26,358 bases of DNA from a virus. Numbering within the stretch: position 1 is the stretch's first letter; each line of letters opens with the position of its first letter. This document shows, piece by piece, positions 2,580 to 26,131 of this stretch. The stretch lies in the IMG/VR virus record IMGVR_UViG_3300028400_000028, positions 1 to 26,358 of that record; one strand, given 5' to 3'. The position numbers and the translations under genes were made by a program. A model generated the notes under the pieces. The model was given only the letters and a program-made list of their open reading frames with translations, made no database searches and was not told the origin of the DNA.

Positions 2580-3910
2580 GCGTGCTCTACCCCTATCAGC
2601 AGAAATGGCTCAACGACGACAGCCGCTTCAAGATCGGCATGTTCGCGCGGCAGACCGGCAAGACCTTCACCACCACGCTGGAGATCGTGCTCGACTGCCT
2701 CAAGGCGGAGGCCGCGGGCAAGAAGTCGCGCTGGGTCATTCTCTCTCGCGGCGAGCGCCAGGCGCGAGAGGCGATGGAAGAGGGGATAAAGCTGCATCTA
2801 CGGGCCATGAAAGTGGCTTTCGAGGCCTATGAATCGGACTATTTCGAGGGCACGCAGACGAAGAATCTGGAAGTGACGCTGCCCGGCGGCTCGCGCATCA
2901 CCGCGCTGCCGGCCAATCCGGACACGGCGCGGGGCTTCTCCGCCAACGTCTTTCTGGACGAATTCGCCTTCCACAAGGATTCGCGCGCCATCTGGAAAGC
3001 CCTGTTCCCGGTGGTTTCCGCCGGCTGGAAGCTGCGCGTGGTCTCCACCCCCAACGGCAAGGGCAACATGTTCTACGACCTGGTCACCGACCAGAGCGAG
3101 AACAATCCCTGGTCGCGCCATATTGTTGACATTTATCAAGCGGTGGCCGATGGCCTGCCGCGCGACATCGAGATGCTGCGCGCCGGGCTGAAGGATGCCG
3201 ACGCCTGGGCGCAGGAGTACGAATTGCAATGGCTGGACGAGGCCAGCGCCTGGCTCAGCTACGACCTGATCAATAGCGTCGAGGACGACCGCGCCACGGC
3301 CGAGCGCTATCAGGGCGGGCAGACGTTCATCGGCAACGATATCGCCGCCCGCAACGACCTTTGGTGCGCCTGGGTCTGGGAGCGCGTCGGTGATGTGCTG
3401 TGGACCCGCGAGGTGGTGACGCTGAAGCGGGCGACCTTCGCCACGCAGGACGCCACCCTCGACGAGCTGGTGAGGAAATACAACCCGGTGCGGATCTGCA
3501 TGGACCAGACCGGCATGGGCGAAAAGCCGGTGGAGGACGCGATCCGCCGCTATGGCGCCAGCCGCGTCGAGGGCGTGCTGTTCACCGGCACGGCCAAGCA
3601 GCACATGGCCAGCCTGGCGAAACAGGCCTTCGAGGATCGCAAGTTGCGCATTCCGCTTGGGGATGAGGATATCCGCGCCGATCTGCACAGTCTGCGCCGC
3701 ATTACCACGGCGGCCGGCAATATCCGCTTCGACGTGGAGGGCGGAGACGGCCACGCCGACCGCGCCTGGGCCGCGTTTCTGGGCATCTACGCCGCGTCGA
3801 GCGGGCACGAGGTGTTCGCCTATGAGCCTGTGTTGCGTCAGGCGGATGAGGATTTCGAGCGGCCGGTGCGGGTGACAGCCGGCTTCGGTCTGGCGGGAGG
3901 AGTGCTGTAA
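2576..3910 (+). CDS. Phage terminase large subunit (Mu gp28-like)
   Basis: This 444-residue protein starts at an ATG overlapping the stop of the small subunit. The N-terminal ATPase has a Walker A-like ARQTGKT at residues 24-30 and a Walker B FLDE with Asp128 and Glu129. The C-terminal half (about 225-425) matches an RNase H-like nuclease, with acidic residues in GNDIAARNDL and CMDQTGMG. It should drive DNA translocation into the prohead and cut host-flanked phage DNA during headful packaging. The portal gene follows with a TAATG overlap, as in other Mu-like phages. Confidence 0.92.
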   Translation: MSVLYPYQQKWLNDDSRFKIGMFARQTGKTFTTTLEIVLDCLKAEAAGKKSRWVILSRGERQAREAMEEGIKLHLRAMKVAFEAYESDYFEGTQTKNLEVTLPGGSRITALPANPDTARGFSANVFLDEFAFHKDSRAIWKALFPVVSAGWKLRVVSTPNGKGNMFYDLVTDQSENNPWSRHIVDIYQAVADGLPRDIEMLRAGLKDADAWAQEYELQWLDEASAWLSYDLINSVEDDRATAERYQGGQTFIGNDIAARNDLWCAWVWERVGDVLWTREVVTLKRATFATQDATLDELVRKYNPVRICMDQTGMGEKPVEDAIRRYGASRVEGVLFTGTAKQHMASLAKQAFEDRKLRIPLGDEDIRADLHSLRRITTAAGNIRFDVEGGDGHADRAWAAFLGIYAASSGHEVFAYEPVLRQADEDFERPVRVTAGFGLAGGVL

Positions 3911-5469
3911 TGGCGGTATCGCGCATTGTCGATCAATTCGGCCGGCCCATCGAGCTGGGGCGGCTCACCGAGGAGGTCGCCAGCCCGTCGCTGACCGGCG
4001 TCCGCTCGGTCTGGAGCTACGGCAGCATGGCCGATGGCCTGACGCCCTCGCGGCTGGCCAGGGTTCTGCGTGGCGCCAATGATGGCGTGCTGCACGACTA
4101 TCTGACCCTCGCCGAGGAGATGGAAGAGCGCGACATGCACTACGGCAGCGTGCTCGGCACCCGCAAGCGCGGCGTCTCCGGCCTCGAGGTCAGCGTCGAG
4201 GCCGCCAGCGACGCGGCCGAGGATGTGAAGCTGGCCGATGCGCTGCGGGAAAGGATCGTCGCCACGCCGGAGTTCGGCGAGCTGATCGACGATCTGCTCG
4301 ATGCGCTAGGCAAGGGCTTTGCCGTCTGCGAAATCATCTGGGACCGCAGCGGCCGTCAGTGGCAGCCGCTGCGCTACGAATGGCGCGATCCGCGATTTTT
4401 CACGCCGTCGCGCGAGGATGGGCGCACTCTGCGACTGCTGGACGAAGCCAATCCCTCCGAGGGCGTCGAGCTGCCACCCTACAAGTTCGTGCCCCACTAT
4501 CCACGATTGAAGTCGGGCCTGCCGGCGCGTGGCGGCCTTGCCAGGCTGGCGGCCGTCTCTTACATGTGCAAGAGCTACGCGCTGTCCGACTGGATGGCGT
4601 TCGCCGAGGTCTATGGCCAGCCGATCCGGGTCGGCCGCTACGGCCCCAGCGCCAGCGAGGCCGATCGCAAGATCCTGAAAACCGCCGTCGCCAATATCGG
4701 CAGCGACGCGGCCGCGATTCTGCCGGAGTCGATGCGCATCGAGTTCATCGAAGCCGCCAAGGGGGCCAGTGGCGGCGACAGCCTGTTCCAGAGCCTGGCC
4801 GAATGGCTCGACCGCCAGATCAGCAAGGGCGTGCTGGGCCAGACGGCATCGACCGAGGGCACGCCCGGCAAGCTCGGCAATGAGGATGCGCAGGACGCGG
4901 TGCGCGACGACATCAAGCGCGCCGATGCAAAAGCGCTACAGAACACGCTCAACCGCTACCTGGTGCGGCCGTTCATCGATCTGAACTTCGGCCCGCGGGA
5001 GCAGTACCCGCGCATCGAAATTCCGGTGCCGGAGGCAGAGGATCTGGCGCAACTGGCCAATGCGCTGGAAAAGCTGGTGCCGCTGGGCATTTCGGCGCCG
5101 GCCAAGTGGGCAAGAGACAAGTTCGGCATTCCGGATGGCCGCGCCGATGATGAATTCCTCGCCGCGCCGTCAACCGCTCCGAGCGCGATGAATCACGCCT
5201 GCCCGGCCTGCGGCGGCCATCACGTCGCCCTGAACCGCCAGCAGCCGGATGAAATCGACGCCCTCCTCGAGGAGGGGCTGGCTGACTGGGAGCGGCAGAT
5301 GACGCCCATTGCAAAGCCGATCGAAGACGCTTTGAAGCGGGCGCAAAGCTATGAGGAATTCGTTTCCATGCTGCCCGGACTGGTGAATGAAATGGACGCC
5401 ACCGAGCTGGTGGAAACGCTGGCGCGGCAGACGTTCAAGGCGCGGGGGCTGGGTGATGGCAAGGCATAA
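3910..5469 (+). CDS. Phage portal protein, DUF935 family (Mu gp29-like)
   Basis: This 519-residue protein follows the terminase directly and has the DUF935 pattern, including LTPSRLARVLRGANDG, HYGSVLGTRKRGV and the FVPHYPRLKSGLPARGGL region. It forms the ring at the unique capsid vertex through which DNA enters and leaves. Near the C-terminus is a short Cys/His cluster, Cys431-x2-Cys434-x2-His437-His438, that might bind zinc. The C-terminal 80 residues are acidic and helical. In Mu the F gene follows next, but here the fibre/DGR cassette comes in between. Confidence 0.92.
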   Translation: MAVSRIVDQFGRPIELGRLTEEVASPSLTGVRSVWSYGSMADGLTPSRLARVLRGANDGVLHDYLTLAEEMEERDMHYGSVLGTRKRGVSGLEVSVEAASDAAEDVKLADALRERIVATPEFGELIDDLLDALGKGFAVCEIIWDRSGRQWQPLRYEWRDPRFFTPSREDGRTLRLLDEANPSEGVELPPYKFVPHYPRLKSGLPARGGLARLAAVSYMCKSYALSDWMAFAEVYGQPIRVGRYGPSASEADRKILKTAVANIGSDAAAILPESMRIEFIEAAKGASGGDSLFQSLAEWLDRQISKGVLGQTASTEGTPGKLGNEDAQDAVRDDIKRADAKALQNTLNRYLVRPFIDLNFGPREQYPRIEIPVPEAEDLAQLANALEKLVPLGISAPAKWARDKFGIPDGRADDEFLAAPSTAPSAMNHACPACGGHHVALNRQQPDEIDALLEEGLADWERQMTPIAKPIEDALKRAQSYEEFVSMLPGLVNEMDATELVETLARQTFKARGLGDGKA

Positions 5470-5869
5470 TTTCAGCCTGGGTCCGGTTATCCGGCATCTG
5501 CGGATCTATCGCGGCGCGGAGCTGATCGAGCGGCTGCCGCTGCCACCCGGCGACTGGTCCGGGTTTTCGCCGGTTGCGCAGCTGCGGGCCGATGTCGGCC
5601 AACCGCTGCTGGCGGCGGCTGAAGCGGCCATCGATGGGGGGGGTGTGGTGCTGCGCGTGGCGTCAGCAGAAACGGCCAACCTGCCAGACAACGGCTGGTG
5701 GGACTGCCTGCTGGTCGCCGCCAGCGGCGAGCGGCGGTTGTTCGCGCGTGGGCGATGGAGCGCATACGGCGTCATCACGGCCGACGAGACCGTTCCGGTC
5801 GGGGATTTTCTGATTGCTGCCGACGGCAGCCTGGTAACCGCTGCCGACGGCAGCCTGATTGTGGTGTAG
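5456..5869 (+). CDS. Hypothetical protein opening the fibre cassette
   Basis: The likely start is ATG at 5456, inside the end of the portal gene (14-bp overlap), giving 137 residues. The composition is mixed beta-type with many Gly, Ala and Val. The C-terminus has two AADGSL repeats (IAADGSLVTAADGSLIVV), encoded by a 24-bp tandem repeat. No catalytic motif is visible. Its place just before the fibre gene suggests a small virion or fibre-attachment protein, but that is positional inference only. Confidence 0.6.
   Translation: MARHNFSLGPVIRHLRIYRGAELIERLPLPPGDWSGFSPVAQLRADVGQPLLAAAEAAIDGGGVVLRVASAETANLPDNGWWDCLLVAASGERRLFARGRWSAYGVITADETVPVGDFLIAADGSLVTAADGSLIVV
5816..5857. repeat. Tandem 24-bp repeat containing two 15-bp palindromes
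   Basis: GCTGCCGaCGGCAGC occurs at 5816-5830 and again at 5840-5854. Each is a perfect hyphenated palindrome, and the direct repeat extends to 18 bp (5816-5833 and 5840-5857). They code for the two AADGSL units and lie 16 bp before the fibre gene start. They could be a coding repeat only, paired RNA hairpins, or a site for exchange of fibre modules. Confidence 0.6.
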
Positions 5870-5872
5870 AGC

Positions 5873-8128
5873 ATGCCAAACAAGACGATTGCGGAAGTAG
5901 CAGACGAGATCAAGGCGTCATACGAGTCCAACGCGGACACCAATGCCTATACCGATGCCGAAAAGGCCAAGCTGGCCGGCATCGAGGAGAACGCCACCGC
6001 CGACATGACCGGCGCGGAGATTAAGGCGGCCTACGAGGGCGAACCGGACACCAATGCCTATACCGATGCCGAAAAGGCCAAGCTGGCCGGCGTCGAGGCC
6101 AACGCCACCGCCGACATGACCGGGGCGGAGATCAAGGCGGCCTACGAGGCCGAGGCGGACACCAACGCCTATACCGATGCCGAAAAGGCCAAGCTGGCCG
6201 GCATCGAGGAGAACGCCACCGCCGACATGACCGGGGCGGAAATCAAGGCGGCCTATGAGGGCGAGGCGGATACCAACGCCTACACCGACGCCGAAAAGGC
6301 CAAGCTGGCCGGCATCGAGGACAACGCCACGGCAGACATGACCGGGGCGGAGATCAAGACGGCCTACGAGTCCAACGCGGACACCAACGCTTATACCGAT
6401 GCCGAGAAGGCCGCGCTGAATGACATCATGCAAAACGGTGTTGCTGCACCATATTTGAGCGTTGAATATGCTGGTGCGCGCATCAGCATCGGCGCGACTG
6501 TGGCAACAATTAATACCGGAACGGATTTCGGTGACTCTACGATTGGCGGGAATGGTGTAGAACATGAATTCTCAATCGTCAATCGCGGGGCCGATGATAT
6601 AACGCTACCTGCTGACGCGGCGTCGGTTGCGGGTGCTGGATTTTCGGTAACGCAGCAACCGGCTGCTGGTGTTTTAGCGCCAGACGAGTCGGCAGCATTC
6701 AAGCTGGTGTTTTCCCCAACGTCCGCTGGAGTCGCAAACGGAACTGTGTCGGTAGCATCATCCGATCCGGTACGGTCACCGTTTGATTTTGTTGTCGCCG
6801 GAAACGGTGTGGAGCTGTTAGTTGGTGGCGCGCCAGGTGAGGCTGGCTATGGTGTATGCGCTCCAGATTTGACTGGCACGGGATTCGAGCCGCTCGATGC
6901 GGCTCAATATACAGACCCGACAGCGGCAAATTTTGGCAATGCGCGCCACACACTCTCCGGCAGTATCGAGGTGATGATTCCGGCAATGGGGTTCAAGTCT
7001 GGCGCAAATCCAAACGAGTGGAGTTCAGCGTATCTCGCAACATACGCGGGAGATGTCTCAGCGATGGAGGCTGATGGATATATTCTGCATGAAGCATTTT
7101 ATGCTGGAGGCACAGGAGCCGCGCCGAATGTCGTGCCGGTGCTGGCAGTAGACAAATACCTGTGTAGCAAAGTGGCGCAGGGAACAGGATTTGTCGCGGC
7201 ATCGATAAAAGACGGCGATCCGCTATCGACGAGTTCAGACCATAATCCGGTAGCGGATATTACCGCCGCGGGCGGGGTCAACGCATATTACGCCGCAGTC
7301 CGCGCGGTCAAGGGGCGCGATTCCGCGAACGGTGAATACGACAGCGGGTCGCGCTGGTATGTGACGACTCGGCAGATTCAAGGGCTCATGCAGCTCATCT
7401 CGCTATGTCACGGTCAGGCCGCAACATCAACCACGCATTGCGCATGGTACGACGCTACTGGCGCTAAAAATTACCCACGAGGGTGCGACAACAACGCGCT
7501 CGGTAGCGTGGATGATGCGTCGCTGTCGTGGGTTGGTGATGGTTACAGTAATGCGGCGAAAACAGGATCGTGCAGCGACCCAGCAAAAACGTCTGTAAAT
7601 GGGCAGTTATGCGGGGTTGTGGAGCTGGGCGGGAATATGTATCAGATCAATCTCGGCATGACCCGCTCCTCCGATCAGGCGAGCGACGGCAGCGACACGA
7701 CGTTTTTTGTGCTCAAAAAACACATCGATCCGGCATCGCTGGATTGGGGGGCGGGCGGGCCGTCCGACGCTTGGGGGACGATTGCGTCACTTCAGGATCG
7801 ATATGACAGAATTGATATCCCCGCGTTGACTCATTCTTCAGCGTGGATGCGATTTGGCAACGGGACAAAACAGGTATTGCCGACGAACAACAACCAGATA
7901 TTATCTCTGGCCATGCCAGTCGATGCCAACGCAATATCAGCCGGAGGTACGCAGCAATTTGGGAATGATGGTATCTACCTATATCACCGTTCTCTGTTGT
8001 GCGTGCTCTCCGGCCTGAGCTGGAGTAATGGGTCCTTGGCCGGGGTGGCGGGCGCGCATCTGGGCCATGCGCGGGCGCACTCGTACAACCTTGTCGGGTT
8101 CCGCGCCGCCTGTGCCTTGTCGGCATGA
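5873..8128 (+). CDS. Fibre-like virion protein with C-type-lectin-like variable tip; DGR target
   Basis: This 751-residue protein has three parts. Residues about 10-185 contain near-perfect 37-residue repeats (NAYTDAEKAKLAG...ADMTGAEIKAAYE), known from phage tail fibres and probably forming an extended trimeric stalk. Residues about 195-315 resemble a Hydin/choice-of-anchor-D immunoglobulin-like domain (GNGVEHEFSIVNRG, FSPTSAGVANGTVSV). The C-terminus (about 320-751) ends in SGLSWSNGSLAGV...VGFRAAC, the formylglycine-generating-enzyme-like C-type lectin fold typical of DGR targets. VR covers residues 708-747; substitutions against the template are at 716, 727, 729, 731, 732, 735, 736, 738, 740 and 746. 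The stop overlaps avd. It should bind host receptors; the receptor is unknown. The part after the repeats is clearly poorer in GC than the neighbouring genes. Confidence 0.9.
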   Translation: MPNKTIAEVADEIKASYESNADTNAYTDAEKAKLAGIEENATADMTGAEIKAAYEGEPDTNAYTDAEKAKLAGVEANATADMTGAEIKAAYEAEADTNAYTDAEKAKLAGIEENATADMTGAEIKAAYEGEADTNAYTDAEKAKLAGIEDNATADMTGAEIKTAYESNADTNAYTDAEKAALNDIMQNGVAAPYLSVEYAGARISIGATVATINTGTDFGDSTIGGNGVEHEFSIVNRGADDITLPADAASVAGAGFSVTQQPAAGVLAPDESAAFKLVFSPTSAGVANGTVSVASSDPVRSPFDFVVAGNGVELLVGGAPGEAGYGVCAPDLTGTGFEPLDAAQYTDPTAANFGNARHTLSGSIEVMIPAMGFKSGANPNEWSSAYLATYAGDVSAMEADGYILHEAFYAGGTGAAPNVVPVLAVDKYLCSKVAQGTGFVAASIKDGDPLSTSSDHNPVADITAAGGVNAYYAAVRAVKGRDSANGEYDSGSRWYVTTRQIQGLMQLISLCHGQAATSTTHCAWYDATGAKNYPRGCDNNALGSVDDASLSWVGDGYSNAAKTGSCSDPAKTSVNGQLCGVVELGGNMYQINLGMTRSSDQASDGSDTTFFVLKKHIDPASLDWGAGGPSDAWGTIASLQDRYDRIDIPALTHSSAWMRFGNGTKQVLPTNNNQILSLAMPVDANAISAGGTQQFGNDGIYLYHRSLLCVLSGLSWSNGSLAGVAGAHLGHARAHSYNLVGFRAACALSA
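5900..6418 (+). repeat. 111-bp tandem repeats coding the fibre stalk
   Basis: The NAYTDAEKA codons begin at 5942, 6053, 6164, 6275 and 6386, exactly 111 bp apart, so the unit is 37 residues. The first and last copies are partial or diverged (ADEIKASYESN at the start, AALNDIMQNG at the end). High identity between units makes expansion or contraction by recombination likely, which would change stalk length. Confidence 0.92.
7994..8112 (+). repeat. DGR variable repeat (VR)
   Basis: This stretch aligns without gaps to 8546-8664 at a constant offset of 552. Across 7995-8112 there are 13 differences (8011, 8019, 8051, 8057, 8063, 8064, 8066, 8075, 8078, 8084, 8090, 8091, 8109) and each is opposite an A in TR: six to C, five to G, two to T. 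Position 7994 may be a further A-to-C change. Ten of the 23 TR adenines are unchanged, including those under the WSNG motif. The 3' 17 bp at 8092-8108 are identical in both copies and should hold the initiation-of-mutagenic-homing sequence. The first non-adenine mismatch is at 8113. Confidence 0.97.
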
Positions 8129-8145
8129 GCGATAGCGATATGCCG
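8121..8145 (+). promoter_or_regulatory. Inverted repeat just downstream of VR, candidate DGR target hairpin
   Basis: CGGCAT (8121-8126) and ATGCCG (8140-8145) can pair with a 13-nt loop. The element begins about 9 bp after the VR end and spans the target stop and the avd start. In the Bordetella phage BPP-1 DGR, a hairpin shortly after VR enhances retrohoming. The stem here is shorter and the loop larger, so the match is tentative. Confidence 0.3.
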
Positions 8146-8544
8146 GGAATCGCACGTGTGACGCCAGGAGAGGCAAAATTGATCCGCCGGATCGGTGAGT
8201 TGGCAAAGCGGCTCAATATTTATCTGAATCATTTTCCTCGTCACGAGAAGTATGCGCTATCGAACAGAATCAGGAATACGCTGTATGAGGTTTACGATCT
8301 GGTCGTTGAGGGTGAAAAGCGGTATCACAAAAAGACTGTGCTGACGAATCTTGATATTGCACATGAGCGACTAAGAATGCAGTTATGGTTGGCGAATGAG
8401 CTAGGGTATTTTTGTTATGAGCGTGGGGCAACCGGCCGCGATGACGCGCTGGCAGCGCGGAGGTATTTGACCATCAATAGAATGGTTGACGAGATCGGTA
8501 GGATGATTGGTGGGTGGATATCGAGCAAGAGGGATGCGTCTTAA
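8125..8544 (+). CDS. avd: DGR accessory variability determinant (four-helix bundle)
   Basis: This 139-residue protein begins with an ATG overlapping the target stop (ATGA). Its segments FPRHEKYALSNRIRNTLYEV, AHERLRMQLWLANELGYF and INRMVDEIGRMIGGWI are characteristic of the Avd/four-helix-bundle (23S rRNA insertion-like) family. Avd forms a basic pentameric barrel that binds the reverse transcriptase and template RNA and is required for mutagenic retrohoming. The basic residues in helices one and two fit nucleic-acid binding. The length is close to the roughly 125-130 residues usual for Avd. The region has lower GC than the neighbouring phage genes (25 of 60 bases at 8221-8280). The stop lies just before TR. 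Confidence 0.9.
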   Translation: MSDSDMPGIARVTPGEAKLIRRIGELAKRLNIYLNHFPRHEKYALSNRIRNTLYEVYDLVVEGEKRYHKKTVLTNLDIAHERLRMQLWLANELGYFCYERGATGRDDALAARRYLTINRMVDEIGRMIGGWISSKRDAS

Positions 8545-8545
8545 C

Positions 8546-8664
8546 ATGTTGTGCGTGCTCTCAGGCCTGAACTGGAGTAATGGGTCCTTGGCCGGGGTGG
8601 CGAGCGCGAATCTGAACAATGCGCGGACGAACTCGAACAACAATGTCGGGTTCCGCGCCGACTG
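8546..8664 (+). repeat. DGR template repeat (TR)
   Basis: This is the invariant donor copy of VR. It contains 23 adenines from 8547 to 8664, many in AAC or AAT codons when read in the target frame (nine AAY codons, seven changed in VR), which maximises non-stop substitution. It starts two bases after the avd stop and lies upstream of the reverse transcriptase, the common order VR-avd-TR-RT. The 3' GTCGGGTTCCGCGCCG part is shared with VR. Confidence 0.97.
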
Positions 8665-8793
8665 CGATTCCGTCCTCAAATCTCAAGTGAGAACAGTGGA
8701 GTCACAGGGAGACGCATTCCTGCGGAAACGCGAAATCTGCAACTCTGGCGTTTTTGGTAGGCGCATAGCCGAAGATCACGCCCGGGATCTATC
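8546..8793 (+). ncRNA. DGR template RNA with TR-RT spacer
   Basis: The 129-bp stretch between TR and the RT start holds no convincing gene. In characterised DGRs the RNA spanning TR and the following spacer is the template and primer scaffold for adenine-mutagenic cDNA synthesis. The exact RNA ends cannot be seen. A reading frame open across it (to 8797) is best explained by TR copying the target's coding sequence. Confidence 0.6.
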
Positions 8794-9786
8794 GTGAAAC
8801 GGGTTGGCGGGCTATATGGAGATGTGTTCTCTCCCGCCAACTTGTATGCGGGTTACATGGATGCCCGGAGGTGCAAGCGCTCAAAGCCGGCGTGTCTGGC
8901 GTTTGAGAAATCTCTTGCGGTAAATCTCGACGGGCTGAGGCGAGAGATTATTGCAGGCATCTACCGCCCAGCGCCTTTGCGCAAATTCACTATATGCGAG
9001 CCGAAGGAGCGAGTGATTCACGCGCCGTCGTTTCGTGATCTGGTGGTTCAGCATGCGATATATCGTATTGTCTGGCCCATTTTTGATGCGACATTCATCG
9101 ATCATTCATATGCCTGCCGGCCCGGATACGGGACGCATAAATGCGCTGATTATGTTCAGCAGGCGCTCAGACGGTCGGAGGGTTACACGCTACATCTGGA
9201 TGTGCGCAAATATTTCTACTCGATCGACAGAGGGTTGTTGCGCAAGATGGTCGAGAGAAAGGTCAAGGACGACCGGCTGGTTGATGTGATGGTGTTGTTT
9301 GCAGGCGGAGATTCAGGGCGTGGGATTCCAATCGGCAATTTGCTCAGCCAGATGTACGCGCTGATTTATCTCAACCCGATTGATCATTTCATCAAGCGAG
9401 AGCTGAGGGTTGCACGCTACGCCCGATATATGGATGACATGTTGCTGGTTGGTCTGTCTCGCGAAGAGTGCGATCGCGCCGGCGCTGCTGTAGAGCGCGA
9501 GCTGTCCCGTCTCGGGCTTGAGCTGTCGAAGGCTTCAATTGCGCCGATTTCGCGCGGCGTCAACTTCGTCGGCTACCGAACATGGCGCTCCAGGCGCTTT
9601 GTTCGCAAGCATTCGCTGTACACGTTCCGTCGAGCCGTCAAGCGTGGCGACAGGCAAAGGGCGGTGTCGGTTCTTGGGCATGCGCGACACACCAGCTCGT
9701 TGCGCTCAATGCTCTTATATGCACGAGAGGAAAATTATGAGCTCTATCTATCGCTACCGGCCGCATATCGGTCGATCGTCTCTTGA
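8794..9786 (+). CDS. DGR reverse transcriptase
   Basis: This 330-residue protein begins at GTG 8794. Reverse transcriptase motifs appear in order: QHAIY (86-90), GYGTHK (111-116), the first catalytic Asp in LDVRKYFYSID (Asp136), GIPIGNLLSQ (177-186) and YMDD (212-215) followed by LLVG. The I-G-N-L-L-S-Q motif is diagnostic of DGR and related retroelement enzymes, where others have a QG or PQG form. There is no maturase or endonuclease domain, and the length is normal for DGR enzymes. It copies TR RNA into cDNA with misincorporation at adenines, together with Avd; the product replaces VR. No start-site ribosome-binding sequence is strong, so expression may rely on read-through from avd. Confidence 0.95.
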   Translation: MKRVGGLYGDVFSPANLYAGYMDARRCKRSKPACLAFEKSLAVNLDGLRREIIAGIYRPAPLRKFTICEPKERVIHAPSFRDLVVQHAIYRIVWPIFDATFIDHSYACRPGYGTHKCADYVQQALRRSEGYTLHLDVRKYFYSIDRGLLRKMVERKVKDDRLVDVMVLFAGGDSGRGIPIGNLLSQMYALIYLNPIDHFIKRELRVARYARYMDDMLLVGLSREECDRAGAAVERELSRLGLELSKASIAPISRGVNFVGYRTWRSRRFVRKHSLYTFRRAVKRGDRQRAVSVLGHARHTSSLRSMLLYAREENYELYLSLPAAYRSIVS

Positions 9787-10162
9787 TTTGATGGATCGGG
9801 AAGGTAATGTCGCCAGCTTGGATCTCTGCGAGATTGACGGCTGGCGTTACGTCAGTGTTGCCGATGATGCCGTGCCGGATGTCGACGTTGTCATCGAGCC
9901 AGTTACGCTCACGGATGAGTTGCGCGGGGCTATAAAACAGTTGTCTCCACACTGTCGTTTGATCAAGCGCCGCGCCGAGGCGCGCATCAGCGAGCGCTAT
10001 TCGCTGGCGGACCGTCTGCAGATCGCGGCCATTGCCGGTGGCATCAGCAATGGGCTGGTGGAGGAGACGCCTGGGTATCGGGCCATGATGGAGGCCTACC
10101 GCGACTATGTCGTGAGCGTCAACCAGTGGGCGGCCGGCGAATATGGCAAGCTGGGGCTTTGA
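9737..10162 (+). CDS. Hypothetical protein, probable fibre-associated or assembly protein
   Basis: The chosen start is ATG 9737, inside the end of the RT gene, with GAGAGG (9725-9730) 6 nt upstream, giving 141 residues. The longer upstream frame is only the RT in another phase. The N-terminal half is beta-like (DLCEIDGWRYVSVADD); the C-terminal half is helical, with RISERYSLADRLQI and a final WAAGEYGKLGL. Similar small proteins with a YSL..RLQI and AYRDYV..V..W pattern lie after phage tail-fibre genes, so a fibre chaperone is possible. I do not recognise a named family. Confidence 0.6.
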   Translation: MSSIYRYRPHIGRSSLDLMDREGNVASLDLCEIDGWRYVSVADDAVPDVDVVIEPVTLTDELRGAIKQLSPHCRLIKRRAEARISERYSLADRLQIAAIAGGISNGLVEETPGYRAMMEAYRDYVVSVNQWAAGEYGKLGL

Positions 10163-10320: not shown

Positions 10321-11841
10321 ATGTCCGTTTCCAGCCCCGGACCCGTCCCCGGCGACGGCCTCGACTACTTCCGCGCCAAGGGCGTCAAGCCGTCGTTCGA
10401 CTATCGCGATGTCTGGCGCGAGGAGCATGCGGCCGCGTTCACGGTGGCCAAGGCGATGCAGGCCGATCTGCTGATGGATCTGCGCGAGGCGGTGGACAGC
10501 GCGCTGGAGCGCGGCGAGACGTTCGATCGGTTTTCGAAGTCGTTGCGGCCGGTGCTGGAAAAGCAGGGTTGGTGGGGTCGGCGCGAGATGCTCGACCCGA
10601 AGACGGGCAAGGTGGTCGATGCGCAGCTCGGCAGCCCTCGCAGACTACTCACTATATATAATGCCAATCTGCGCACCGCGCGCGCCGCCGGGCAGTGGCA
10701 GCGCATCCAGCGCAGCCGCCGAACACATCCCTGGCTGCTGTACCGGATCGGCCCGTCGAAGGAGCATCGGCTGGAGCATGTGCAGTGGAACGGCGTGCTG
10801 CTGCCGGTGGATGATCCCTGGTGGCTGAGCCACTTCCCGCCGAATGGCTGGGGCTGCAAGTGCCATGTGCGCCAAATCAGCCAGCGTGAGCACGATCGCC
10901 TGACGCGCAGCGGCAAGGTAACGACGACCGCGCCGCCATTGTCGCTGCGGGAGTGGGTCAACAAGCGCACCGGCGAGACGGAGCTGGTGCCGAGCGGCAT
11001 CGATCCGGGCTGGGGCACCAATCCGGGGGCGCTGCGCACGGCGGCGCTCAAGCATCAATTGAAGCAGAAGGAAAAGGCCCTCGATGCCGCGTTGAAGCGG
11101 CCCTTGCCGCCACATCCGCAGCGGCTGACGGACCTCGACGATCTGCTCGCCGCCGGCGCGTCGATCCGTCGAGAGCTTGCGAAGGCGCGCTCTGCGGATG
11201 GCAAGGTGGATGAGACTGCGTTTCGCGCCACGCTCCGCGAGCGCCTGGCGCAGGTCCGGCCGATGGCGGCCCTGGTCAAGACGGCCGGTGGCGGCAAGGG
11301 AGCGGCGCTGGTCAAATCCGTCTCGAAGTGGCTGCCGGATGACTGGCTGCGGCGGTCGGACGAGGCTGGCCGGCTGCGAGTCAGGTTCGATGGCAAGGGT
11401 CGCGGCTGGGCGTGGACGGCAAAAAAGACCGGGCCGGTCCGTCTGGCGAAATACGGCGTGGTCGATGCCGCCGAGGGGGACGGGTTTCTGGTGGTGCGCG
11501 ATGCGGGCAATGCCCTGCATGAGCTGATGCATCGGATTCAGTCGGTTTATCCGGAGCTGGATGAGCTGTTTCAGGCGTTGCATCGCCGGCGCACGGCGGG
11601 GGAAGCGCTGGTGTCGCTGAAGGCGCTGAAGCCTGACCGCGACTACAGTCCAGACGAGCTGGCGCGCCCGGACAATTATCTGACGCCCTATCAGGGCAGG
11701 GAGTATGCGGATGGCGGGGCGCTGGAGGTGATGACGATCGCCTTCGAGTATGCGCTCGGTCGGCGCGGGCTGCTGCTGGATATGCTAGAAAAGGATCGTG
11801 AAATGCTGGATCTGGTGCTGGCGGTGCTTTTTCACTTTTAA
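10321..11841 (+). CDS. Minor head protein F (Mu gp30-like, SPP1 gp7 type) with C-terminal HExxH domain
   Basis: This 506-residue protein starts at ATG 10321 with a GGCGAGGT site upstream. Residues about 50-215 are the Phage_Mu_F domain, ending in the hallmark FPPNGWGCKCHVR (Asn175 to Cys181). This family helps assemble the head around the portal. The C-terminal region, about 345-506, is an addition: it has NALHELMHRI with His400-Glu401-x2-His404 and a later Glu469 in GALEVMTIAFE, the arrangement of a zinc metallopeptidase. It may process virion or host proteins after injection. The domain function is inferred from motif only. Confidence 0.87.
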   Translation: MSVSSPGPVPGDGLDYFRAKGVKPSFDYRDVWREEHAAAFTVAKAMQADLLMDLREAVDSALERGETFDRFSKSLRPVLEKQGWWGRREMLDPKTGKVVDAQLGSPRRLLTIYNANLRTARAAGQWQRIQRSRRTHPWLLYRIGPSKEHRLEHVQWNGVLLPVDDPWWLSHFPPNGWGCKCHVRQISQREHDRLTRSGKVTTTAPPLSLREWVNKRTGETELVPSGIDPGWGTNPGALRTAALKHQLKQKEKALDAALKRPLPPHPQRLTDLDDLLAAGASIRRELAKARSADGKVDETAFRATLRERLAQVRPMAALVKTAGGGKGAALVKSVSKWLPDDWLRRSDEAGRLRVRFDGKGRGWAWTAKKTGPVRLAKYGVVDAAEGDGFLVVRDAGNALHELMHRIQSVYPELDELFQALHRRRTAGEALVSLKALKPDRDYSPDELARPDNYLTPYQGREYADGGALEVMTIAFEYALGRRGLLLDMLEKDREMLDLVLAVLFHF

Positions 11842-23904: not shown

Positions 23905-24242
23905 GCGATATAAGCCAGCTCAAGGCGGCATTGAACGCCCTTGTAAAGAAGCACAAGATCGGCTCGGTCACGACCCGTCCGGCGCTCAGGCGCAAGCGGC
24001 CCGCGCGGCAGGTCATCACCCGTTTCACCGCCTCCGGTGGCGCCGAGGGTGGCGGCGTAACCAGCCCAATCACCGAAACCGCCGGCACGCGCGAATACCA
24101 TGACCCCGTCACGTTGACCAGCACGGATGGTCTGTTCACCCTCGTCGACTACGGCTCCTACGCCAAGAAGATCGTCTGCACCGACGCCGTCGGCGAGACC
24201 TTCGAGATCAACCTCAAACCCCCACCGAACGACGGATCATGA
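23901..24242 (+). CDS. Hypothetical distal tail protein
   Basis: The ATG at 23901 overlaps the previous stop (ATGA), giving 113 residues. A basic helical start (KAALNALVKKHKIG) leads to a beta-rich part (REYHDPVTLTSTDGLFTLVDY). The stop overlaps the next ATG. Function is unknown. Confidence 0.55.
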   Translation: MSDISQLKAALNALVKKHKIGSVTTRPALRRKRPARQVITRFTASGGAEGGGVTSPITETAGTREYHDPVTLTSTDGLFTLVDYGSYAKKIVCTDAVGETFEINLKPPPNDGS

Positions 24243-26131
24243 GCAAGGCGCCGACTCCCTTCGATCGCATCCGCCCCCAGATCATGGGGAATCCGTATCA
24301 TGGGCTGGTGAAGGACGGCCAGCTGACGCTTCCCAATGGGCAGGTGATGTCATTGGGGGGTGGTCAGTACCTGGGGCAGGTGTGGGCAACCCCCAGCAGC
24401 TGGGGCTCCGTCCCAGACAGGAGCGAAACGGCGGATCCGGCTGCCTACCAGCTTGATCAGCAGAACGGCTGGCAGTGGCAGCCATATGCGCTGGTGCATG
24501 ATTTCAAGCGCGTCTACGGGCGGACGTTCGTGGCCGGCGGACGTGGCTGGCTGTTCAAATCGTCGGACGGCAAGGTCTGGGCGATCACTATTCAGGGGGC
24601 GACGCTGGCAGGCGTGGATGAATATGCGTTCAGCAAGCCTGGGGCTGCGGGCAATCCGATCGACGGCGATATTGTCATTAAGGCGCGGCGATTTGGGGTC
24701 CTCGATCTTGCGGCTGCGTCGGCGGTGGAGTATGAAGTGTCAATACCGACTCCCGCCGGAACAGTGCCAAGCCCAGAGGACGAGCCGCAGTATTATGACT
24801 GGTATCGGCAATTGCTCGATGTCCGTCCTGATGCTGGTCAGGCTGTTCTTCGGTACGAGAAGGATGCTGGGGTTGGCGTGCCGCGCGAGGCGTACGGTTA
24901 TGTGGTGATCGATGTCGCTGACGTTACTGCCGGCGGTGTGTCTGCCTCGGCGTCACTGGTCAAGTCGCGATCTGATATTGCTCCGCCAGCTGAGCATGAG
25001 GTCTTGGTCGATACGAGCGATCAGAAATGGTGGGGGGTTTCCGCAGCCTGCGGCGGTCTCAATGATGGGTACAAGATCAAGGTAGATACATACGAGTCGG
25101 GGTCGGTATGCTTTGGCAGCAATGGGAAGGTCGGCGCATACCTCACGCTGCCGAACGATGCTTCGAGCGGTGTTTCCAGGGATTACTGGGGGTGCGATCT
25201 CACGCAGTTTCAGGGGCAGTTGTACAGCGCCTCTTCGTTCTCTGAGCATCCGGATGCTCCGAGCGAAGTGGTCTACCAGGATTTGAGCGGTGTTGGGAGT
25301 TACGGTGACTGGGTCAGGCCCTGCGAATTGCCGCCGTCGACCTTGCCTCCAGGCATTGATCCGGATTCGTGTGAGCTGACGTGGGTCTGGTTTGGTGCCG
25401 GGACTGATCCTGATCGCGGCTGGCATCTTCCTGATCCCGTGATTGCGGCGCCGCATCTCGGCGTTGACTCGGTAGACAACAACAAGAGTGAGGTCTGGCG
25501 ACGTGAGAGGATCGTCTCGGCGTACTACGATTCAAGCGGAGTATTGCGATTTGTAACGGAAAAGGAGGAGGAAACCCATGTTCGAAACTCAGGGATAACT
25601 GCGCCGGCAAGTGTGTCCGGGGTGCTGGATGTCAGTGTTACGCAAGGCGACTCGGGGGGGTATTCTGTCTCCTTCAATCAGCATTTGAGCTGGTCTCAGG
25701 ATATCTACGATTATCTTACCAGGACGGTGGTGAAGACGTGGGAGGTTGCTGGATCAACCCTTCTAACTAAGACGACCGTTAACGATTATGCTTATCGGGA
25801 GCGCGGGGCGTACAACACGGGCTCCTATGAGGGGAGGGTGATCTGTATTCAGCGACCAGACCCGTTGTCAATCCTCGAAGATACTCATGATGTGACAAAG
25901 TACGTCGATGGCGTTGAAGTTGAAGCCACGTTTACCCATGTGCGGCGTGGCGGATGGGTGCAGATCGTTGCGCGTGATACTGGTGGTGGGTACGAGACGA
26001 AAGTCGTGCGCGGGGATGTTTCTGGCCAAAAAACATGGATTGGTGGTGGCAACGAAGCGGCGTTTGCTTATCACCCCGTGACAGGTGAACTGGCTATAGA
26101 TGAGACAGTAGACGAGCTGTATTTCATATGA
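24239..26131 (+). CDS. Large tail-tip protein at the right end of the prophage
   Basis: This 630-residue protein starts with an ATG overlapping the previous stop. The N-terminus (MGNPYHGLVKDGQLTLPNGQ) is followed by a beta-rich body with many Trp, Tyr and Gly. No catalytic motif is visible. It is the last phage gene and ends 10 bp before the terminal repeats. The GC content falls visibly within it relative to the genes before it, which suggests exchange between phages. A receptor-contact or tail-tip role is likely but inferred. Confidence 0.6.
   Translation: MSKAPTPFDRIRPQIMGNPYHGLVKDGQLTLPNGQVMSLGGGQYLGQVWATPSSWGSVPDRSETADPAAYQLDQQNGWQWQPYALVHDFKRVYGRTFVAGGRGWLFKSSDGKVWAITIQGATLAGVDEYAFSKPGAAGNPIDGDIVIKARRFGVLDLAAASAVEYEVSIPTPAGTVPSPEDEPQYYDWYRQLLDVRPDAGQAVLRYEKDAGVGVPREAYGYVVIDVADVTAGGVSASASLVKSRSDIAPPAEHEVLVDTSDQKWWGVSAACGGLNDGYKIKVDTYESGSVCFGSNGKVGAYLTLPNDASSGVSRDYWGCDLTQFQGQLYSASSFSEHPDAPSEVVYQDLSGVGSYGDWVRPCELPPSTLPPGIDPDSCELTWVWFGAGTDPDRGWHLPDPVIAAPHLGVDSVDNNKSEVWRRERIVSAYYDSSGVLRFVTEKEEETHVRNSGITAPASVSGVLDVSVTQGDSGGYSVSFNQHLSWSQDIYDYLTRTVVKTWEVAGSTLLTKTTVNDYAYRERGAYNTGSYEGRVICIQRPDPLSILEDTHDVTKYVDGVEVEATFTHVRRGGWVQIVARDTGGGYETKVVRGDVSGQKTWIGGGNEAAFAYHPVTGELAIDETVDELYFI

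Follow-up and report, generated by a model that had tools for sequence, protein, structure and literature searches.

Among natural systems that direct mutation to phage receptor binding, diversity-generating retroelements (DGRs) are the best known. The element of BPP-1 (mtd-avd-TR-brt) is arranged as target gene, avd, template repeat (TR) and reverse transcriptase (RT), with an Avd protein and adenine-specific variation in the variable repeat (VR), and the window analysed here (the whole stretch of viral DNA, 26,358 nucleotides) shares each of these characters. The two RTs are homologous (36% identity), and in BPP-1 a small open reading frame (ORF), bbp4, overlaps the end of the RT gene, as does the ORF in the window that we term the companion, although profile comparison did not relate bbp4 to the companion. 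The window differs from BPP-1 in its fibre stem and domain set, in the form of its hairpin, and in the placement of the element between head genes. Among the deposited phage records searched, Pseudomonas phage Bise was closest to the window (RT 52%, Avd 61%); Bise is a contractile phage with a Mu-like gene order, and its DGR lies after the tail genes and is followed by a Dam gene, with no companion ORF detected. BalMu-1, FP_Mushu and Chromohalobacter YPCBV-1 are likewise Mu-type phages with a DGR and Avd, but their DGRs are found towards the record's end, next to genes for the tail or for lysis, unlike the head-operon placement in the window, and the companion family was not detected in them. 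The Thermus aquaticus DGR variable protein TaqVP (5VF4), which has a C-type lectin fold (PMC6328139), shares with the window's target a C-terminal region that includes the VR segment; this C-terminal part alone is common to both, and the aligned stretch does not include the fibre repeats.

The VR (7995-8112) and TR (8547-8664) of the window, both on the plus strand, aligned without gaps over 118 bp at an offset of 552, and all 13 mismatches between them (6 A>C, 5 A>G and 2 A>T) fell at the 23 adenines of the TR. An earlier note on this DNA had claimed the same alignment and the same restriction to adenines, and our recomputation agreed with it, giving a hypergeometric probability of 1.6e-11 for such a distribution by chance. 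The likeness between the repeats broke off at either end of the 118 bp, and besides the VR no further copy of the TR was found in the 26,358-base record. The VR ends 16 bp short of the end of the target ORF (5873-8128), and many of its variable amino-acid positions correspond to AAC or AAT asparagine codons of the TR, where variation is usual in DGRs.

The RT (8794-9786, plus strand, 330 aa) holds YMDD and IGNLLSQ, the latter within IPIGNLLSQ, and matched the phage DGR RT family phrog_1423 (E 3.8e-101). Its best match among solved structures was 8ub7_A, a chain deposited under the title 'Reverse transcriptase' (E 6.7e-54; the highest-ranking group II RT reached 1.2e-20). The accessory variability determinant, avd (8125-8544, plus strand, 139 aa), encodes a protein that scored over the gathering cut-off of the bAvd family PF22296 (E 7.9e-18), also matched phrog_3206, and reached 79.3 bits against NF033474, just under the cut-off of 80. 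These family searches, proposed in the earlier note, supported its naming of both genes, and inspection of the ORFs showed that all parts are present in the order that it gave (target with VR, avd, TR, RT), with open frames. Having found adenine-restricted TR/VR differences, a VR at the 3' terminus of the target, a DGR-type RT and Avd, we conclude that the element is a genuine, intact DGR. Its previously assigned start at 7994 took in the element from the VR onward, and left outside both the start of the target gene at 5873 and the probable end of the cassette at 10162.

The target (plus strand, 751 aa) was identified as a tail fibre. Five DTNAYTDAEKAKLAG-type repeats with a phage-like composition at third codon positions (GC3) matched PHROG tail fibre families, and the protein also carries a choice-of-anchor-D/Ig-like domain (NF012200). 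A family profile of its C-terminus matched only 5vf4 in the PDB (E 6.4e-07), in an alignment that spans the VR segment, and by this profile comparison the C-terminus of the target, which ends in the VR, is a homologue of TaqVP and is predicted to form a C-type-lectin-type domain. A structure prediction of the target from 16 sequences was too poor for use (mean pLDDT 46.6), and a PDB search with this low-confidence model returned no match.

Behind the RT, and starting inside its gene, lies the companion ORF (9737-10162, plus strand, 141 aa), which had no family match in Pfam, PHROG or NCBIfam; a search with 48 members of its family against Pfam and PHROGs yielded no Pfam family and single-member PHROG matches only, and tblastn with four members found none in phage records. 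Using a profile built from 21 members selected by similarity, and counting those RT clusters with enough DNA, we detected the companion behind the RT in 44 of the 47 clusters that could be scored, and in 27 of the 30 clusters that had contributed no sequence to the profile; the clusters lacking it were L013, L020 and L043-45. An AlphaFold2 model of the companion was of high confidence (pLDDT 96.1) and contained three strands and four helices. Foldseek comparison of this model with solved structures gave nothing at E <= 0.001, VIA-align reached a Z of 6.6 at most and in the helical half only, which was uninformative, and predicted viral structures gave one weak match (E 1.6e-04) to an unnamed protein. 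We found no description of this family in the literature; an earlier mention in DGR surveys is possible.

Its overlap with the 3' end of the RT gene and its frequency behind the RT could indicate that the companion is a third retrohoming protein, that is, a DGR accessory factor. In three phages that lack a DGR (L197, L198 and L214), however, members of the family also stand directly after fibres; the fibres upstream in L197 and L198 had tail-protein and RCC1-type PHROG matches, and in L214 the companion is preceded by a 1091-aa protein that is probably a fibre. The companion is also retained in L195 (8276-10150), where only the last ~50 RT codons stand between a DGR-type target and the companion, and where the DGR has apparently been lost by deletion of avd, the TR and most of the RT, leaving fibre and companion. 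The family was, moreover, not detected behind the RTs of 12 phage records, which included BPP-1, Bise, BalMu-1 and VP585. A direct part in retrohoming is thus a minority possibility that we consider unlikely. Because the family adjoins non-DGR fibres and persists in L195, its role appears to be linked to the fibre, and the gene neighbourhood suggests that the 141-aa companion most likely acts outside the mutagenesis machine, as a chaperone or assembly factor that would assist the folding or assembly of the fibre. This arrangement points to placement of the DGR core into a fibre-companion gene pair.

As possible homologues of the companion we also considered the bbp4 ORF of BPP-1 and those downstream of the RT in other DGR phages, and rejected them for want of profile support. 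Small ORFs of a different kind overlap or abut the end of the RT in DGR phages of Vibrio, Aeromonas and Pseudoalteromonas and in BPP-1 (L202 3462-3806, L203 3463-3738, L204 3517-3798, L209 3531-3806 and L205 3462-3710). Those of L202, L203, L204 and L209 look like one family, ending in ..WRDKVAEIKxRYPLP, and it is possible that the five ORFs are functional analogues of the companion.

Homing in BPP-1 requires a hairpin behind the VR, and the hairpins of phage DGRs have a GC-rich stem of 7-10 bp and a GRNA loop (PMC3240598). A hairpin is found at the equivalent place in the window (8120-8144, plus strand; CGGCAT-GAGCGATAGCGA-T-ATGCCG), where it spans the target stop and the avd start. Its outer stem (CGGCAT/ATGCCG, with a bulged T) and its GATA loop are present, and the stem is interrupted by GA/GA as well as by the bulge. 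As DNA, a 30-nt segment containing this hairpin folded better than 197 of 200 shuffles. Among 58 distinct sites of the clade, 21 had a canonical-type stem of at least 6 bp, 27 had the fixed core GAG(C/T)GATA(G/A)CGA, made up of tandem GA, a 2-bp stem and a GATA loop, and 10 were intermediate. The exact GAGCGATAGCGA occurred 25 times in 642 kb, with 24 of these copies directly behind a VR. The inner pair of the variant core covaries (C-G or T-A), and pairing of the outer flanks was observed 81 times, compared to a mean of 40 and a maximum of 59 in 500 re-deals between loci, with the outer stem being nearly absent at some sites. On the RT tree (41 scored rows), canonical and variant hairpins replaced each other at least eight times. 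From these features we infer that the hairpin just behind the VR, in its variant form, marks the VR as target site in the window, and the variant would presumably work in the way that the canonical hairpin does. No description of the variant core was found in the literature.

Architecture like that of the window was shared by 74 relatives, mostly with a TR-VR spacing of 550-600 bp. Across the resulting 75 TR/VR pairs (the window and its 74 relatives), the VR differed at 1357 of 2266 TR adenines and at 83 of 6334 non-adenine positions. The earlier note had called for VRs to be compared between related strains, and this could be done for near-identical relatives within the clade, in pairs of contigs whose flanking DNA is identical and whose TRs match exactly or almost exactly, where almost only TR-adenine changes were seen. 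All VR changes were at TR adenines in L063/L066 (19/19), L055/L061 (20/20), L037/L040 (6/6) and L029/L030 (11 changes, with one TR difference), as were 21 of the 23 changes in L076/L077. Since the VRs of near-identical relatives differ at TR adenines, DGRs of the window's type diversify in nature.

For the phage of the window itself, a scan of viral contigs with its own TR/VR 20-mer gave no match and no sister strain, so that the comparison proposed for strains was made on its relatives. This lack of strains of the same phage, together with a target hairpin whose stem is interrupted rather than a canonical 7-10 bp, would allow the element to be silent, looking intact while its VR-TR differences are the frozen record of past movement. 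Every ORF is intact, however, and not one non-adenine difference has accumulated across the 118 bp; in many relatives whose hairpin is of this kind the differences keep to the adenine rule, and two of these relatives, L076 and L077, which have identical flanks, differ at 21 TR adenines. We therefore judge a silent element to be quite improbable, and favor a DGR that probably still diversifies its target.

Two further observations were made in these comparisons. A TR T opposite a VR G accounted for 38 of the 83 non-adenine differences among the 75 pairs, and this recurrent mismatch may be the mark of a fixed difference between TR and VR. L023 has the same TR as L024 and L025, with DNA upstream of the VR that is just 46% identical; possibly the target gene was exchanged, or a single TR serves two targets.

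The DGR lies within a head module in which Portal_Mu, Phage_Mu_F and gpT were matched in Pfam. Upstream is the Mu-type portal protein (3910-5469, plus strand; PF06074, E 9e-107), followed by a small ORF (5456-5869, plus strand) that overlaps the portal stop codon, has a phage-core-like GC3 (0.775) and had no Pfam, PHROG or phage-record match; downstream is a MuF-like minor head protein (10321-11841, plus strand; PF04233, phrog_220). These matches sustain the "Mu-like" part of the earlier description of a Mu-like prophage, as regards the head genes, but "prophage" is not supported, since the whole record is without host flanks or an identified transposase; a search of the 26,358-base record, which is a fragment, for MuA/MuB transposase, run without a positive control, gave no match. 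The gap between portal and MuF is 4,851 nt in the window, compared to a median of -2.5 nt in the 78 relatives with both genes (a set in which four stood out with gaps of 333-737 nt and one had a miscalled gene). Core genes had a GC3 of 0.80-0.89 and the fibre repeats one of 0.85, but it was 0.56 in the fibre C-terminus, 0.55 in avd, 0.62 in the RT and 0.70 in the companion, with the break falling inside the fibre gene, near 6,440.

The cassette probably comprises 5873-10162, companion included. Its base composition suggests that the C-terminal half of the fibre, avd, TR, RT and companion are foreign, and that they were probably captured between portal and MuF and joined onto a resident fibre stem. 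That an assembly artefact instead joined two phages is very improbable: an insert of such size was found at this junction in none of the 78 relatives and GC shifts on both sides of the cassette, but neither portal nor MuF is truncated and their order is kept, the small upstream ORF begins before the portal gene ends, the GC break falls within a continuous fibre frame and not at a gene edge, two separate joins would be needed, and L027 is a second phage with such a cassette among its head genes. In L027 the fibre-DGR-companion cassette (3906-9578) has a head structural gene on one side and the head protease on the other, so that the head-module position is not unique to the window; in L010 the cassette lies ahead of the tail sheath. 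Elsewhere in the window, a large low-GC ORF (24239-26131, GC3 0.63) had no family match and is possibly a second acquired tail protein.

Taken together, we hold it as nearly certain that this phage with a Mu-like head has a complete DGR, probably in working order, by which the receptor-binding tip of its tail fibre is diversified; the mechanism, the role of the companion and the acquisition proposed here are probable parts of this reading. By analogy with BPP-1, TR RNA would be copied by the RT with Avd, adenines would be misread, and the mutated cDNA would take the place of the VR at the 3' terminus of the fibre gene. A broader proposal, to which we give about even credence, is that DGRs of this RT clade have a companion across the RT stop and a variant hairpin that has exchanged with the canonical form at least eight times, neither of which we found described, and that the cassette of the window is a portable module of fibre, DGR and companion that came to rest in a head operon. 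The kind of DGR machine is known; what is noteworthy is the family of the companion, the variant form of the hairpin and the position in a head operon, three features that the earlier note had missed. A conserved companion would bear on how a diversified fibre is folded and assembled. Which target-site features the RT/Avd complex reads is a question remaining after the BPP-1 work, and the variant hairpin is a natural test of it. The head-operon position, finally, indicates that insertion of such a cassette can leave a pair of essential, tightly coupled genes unbroken.
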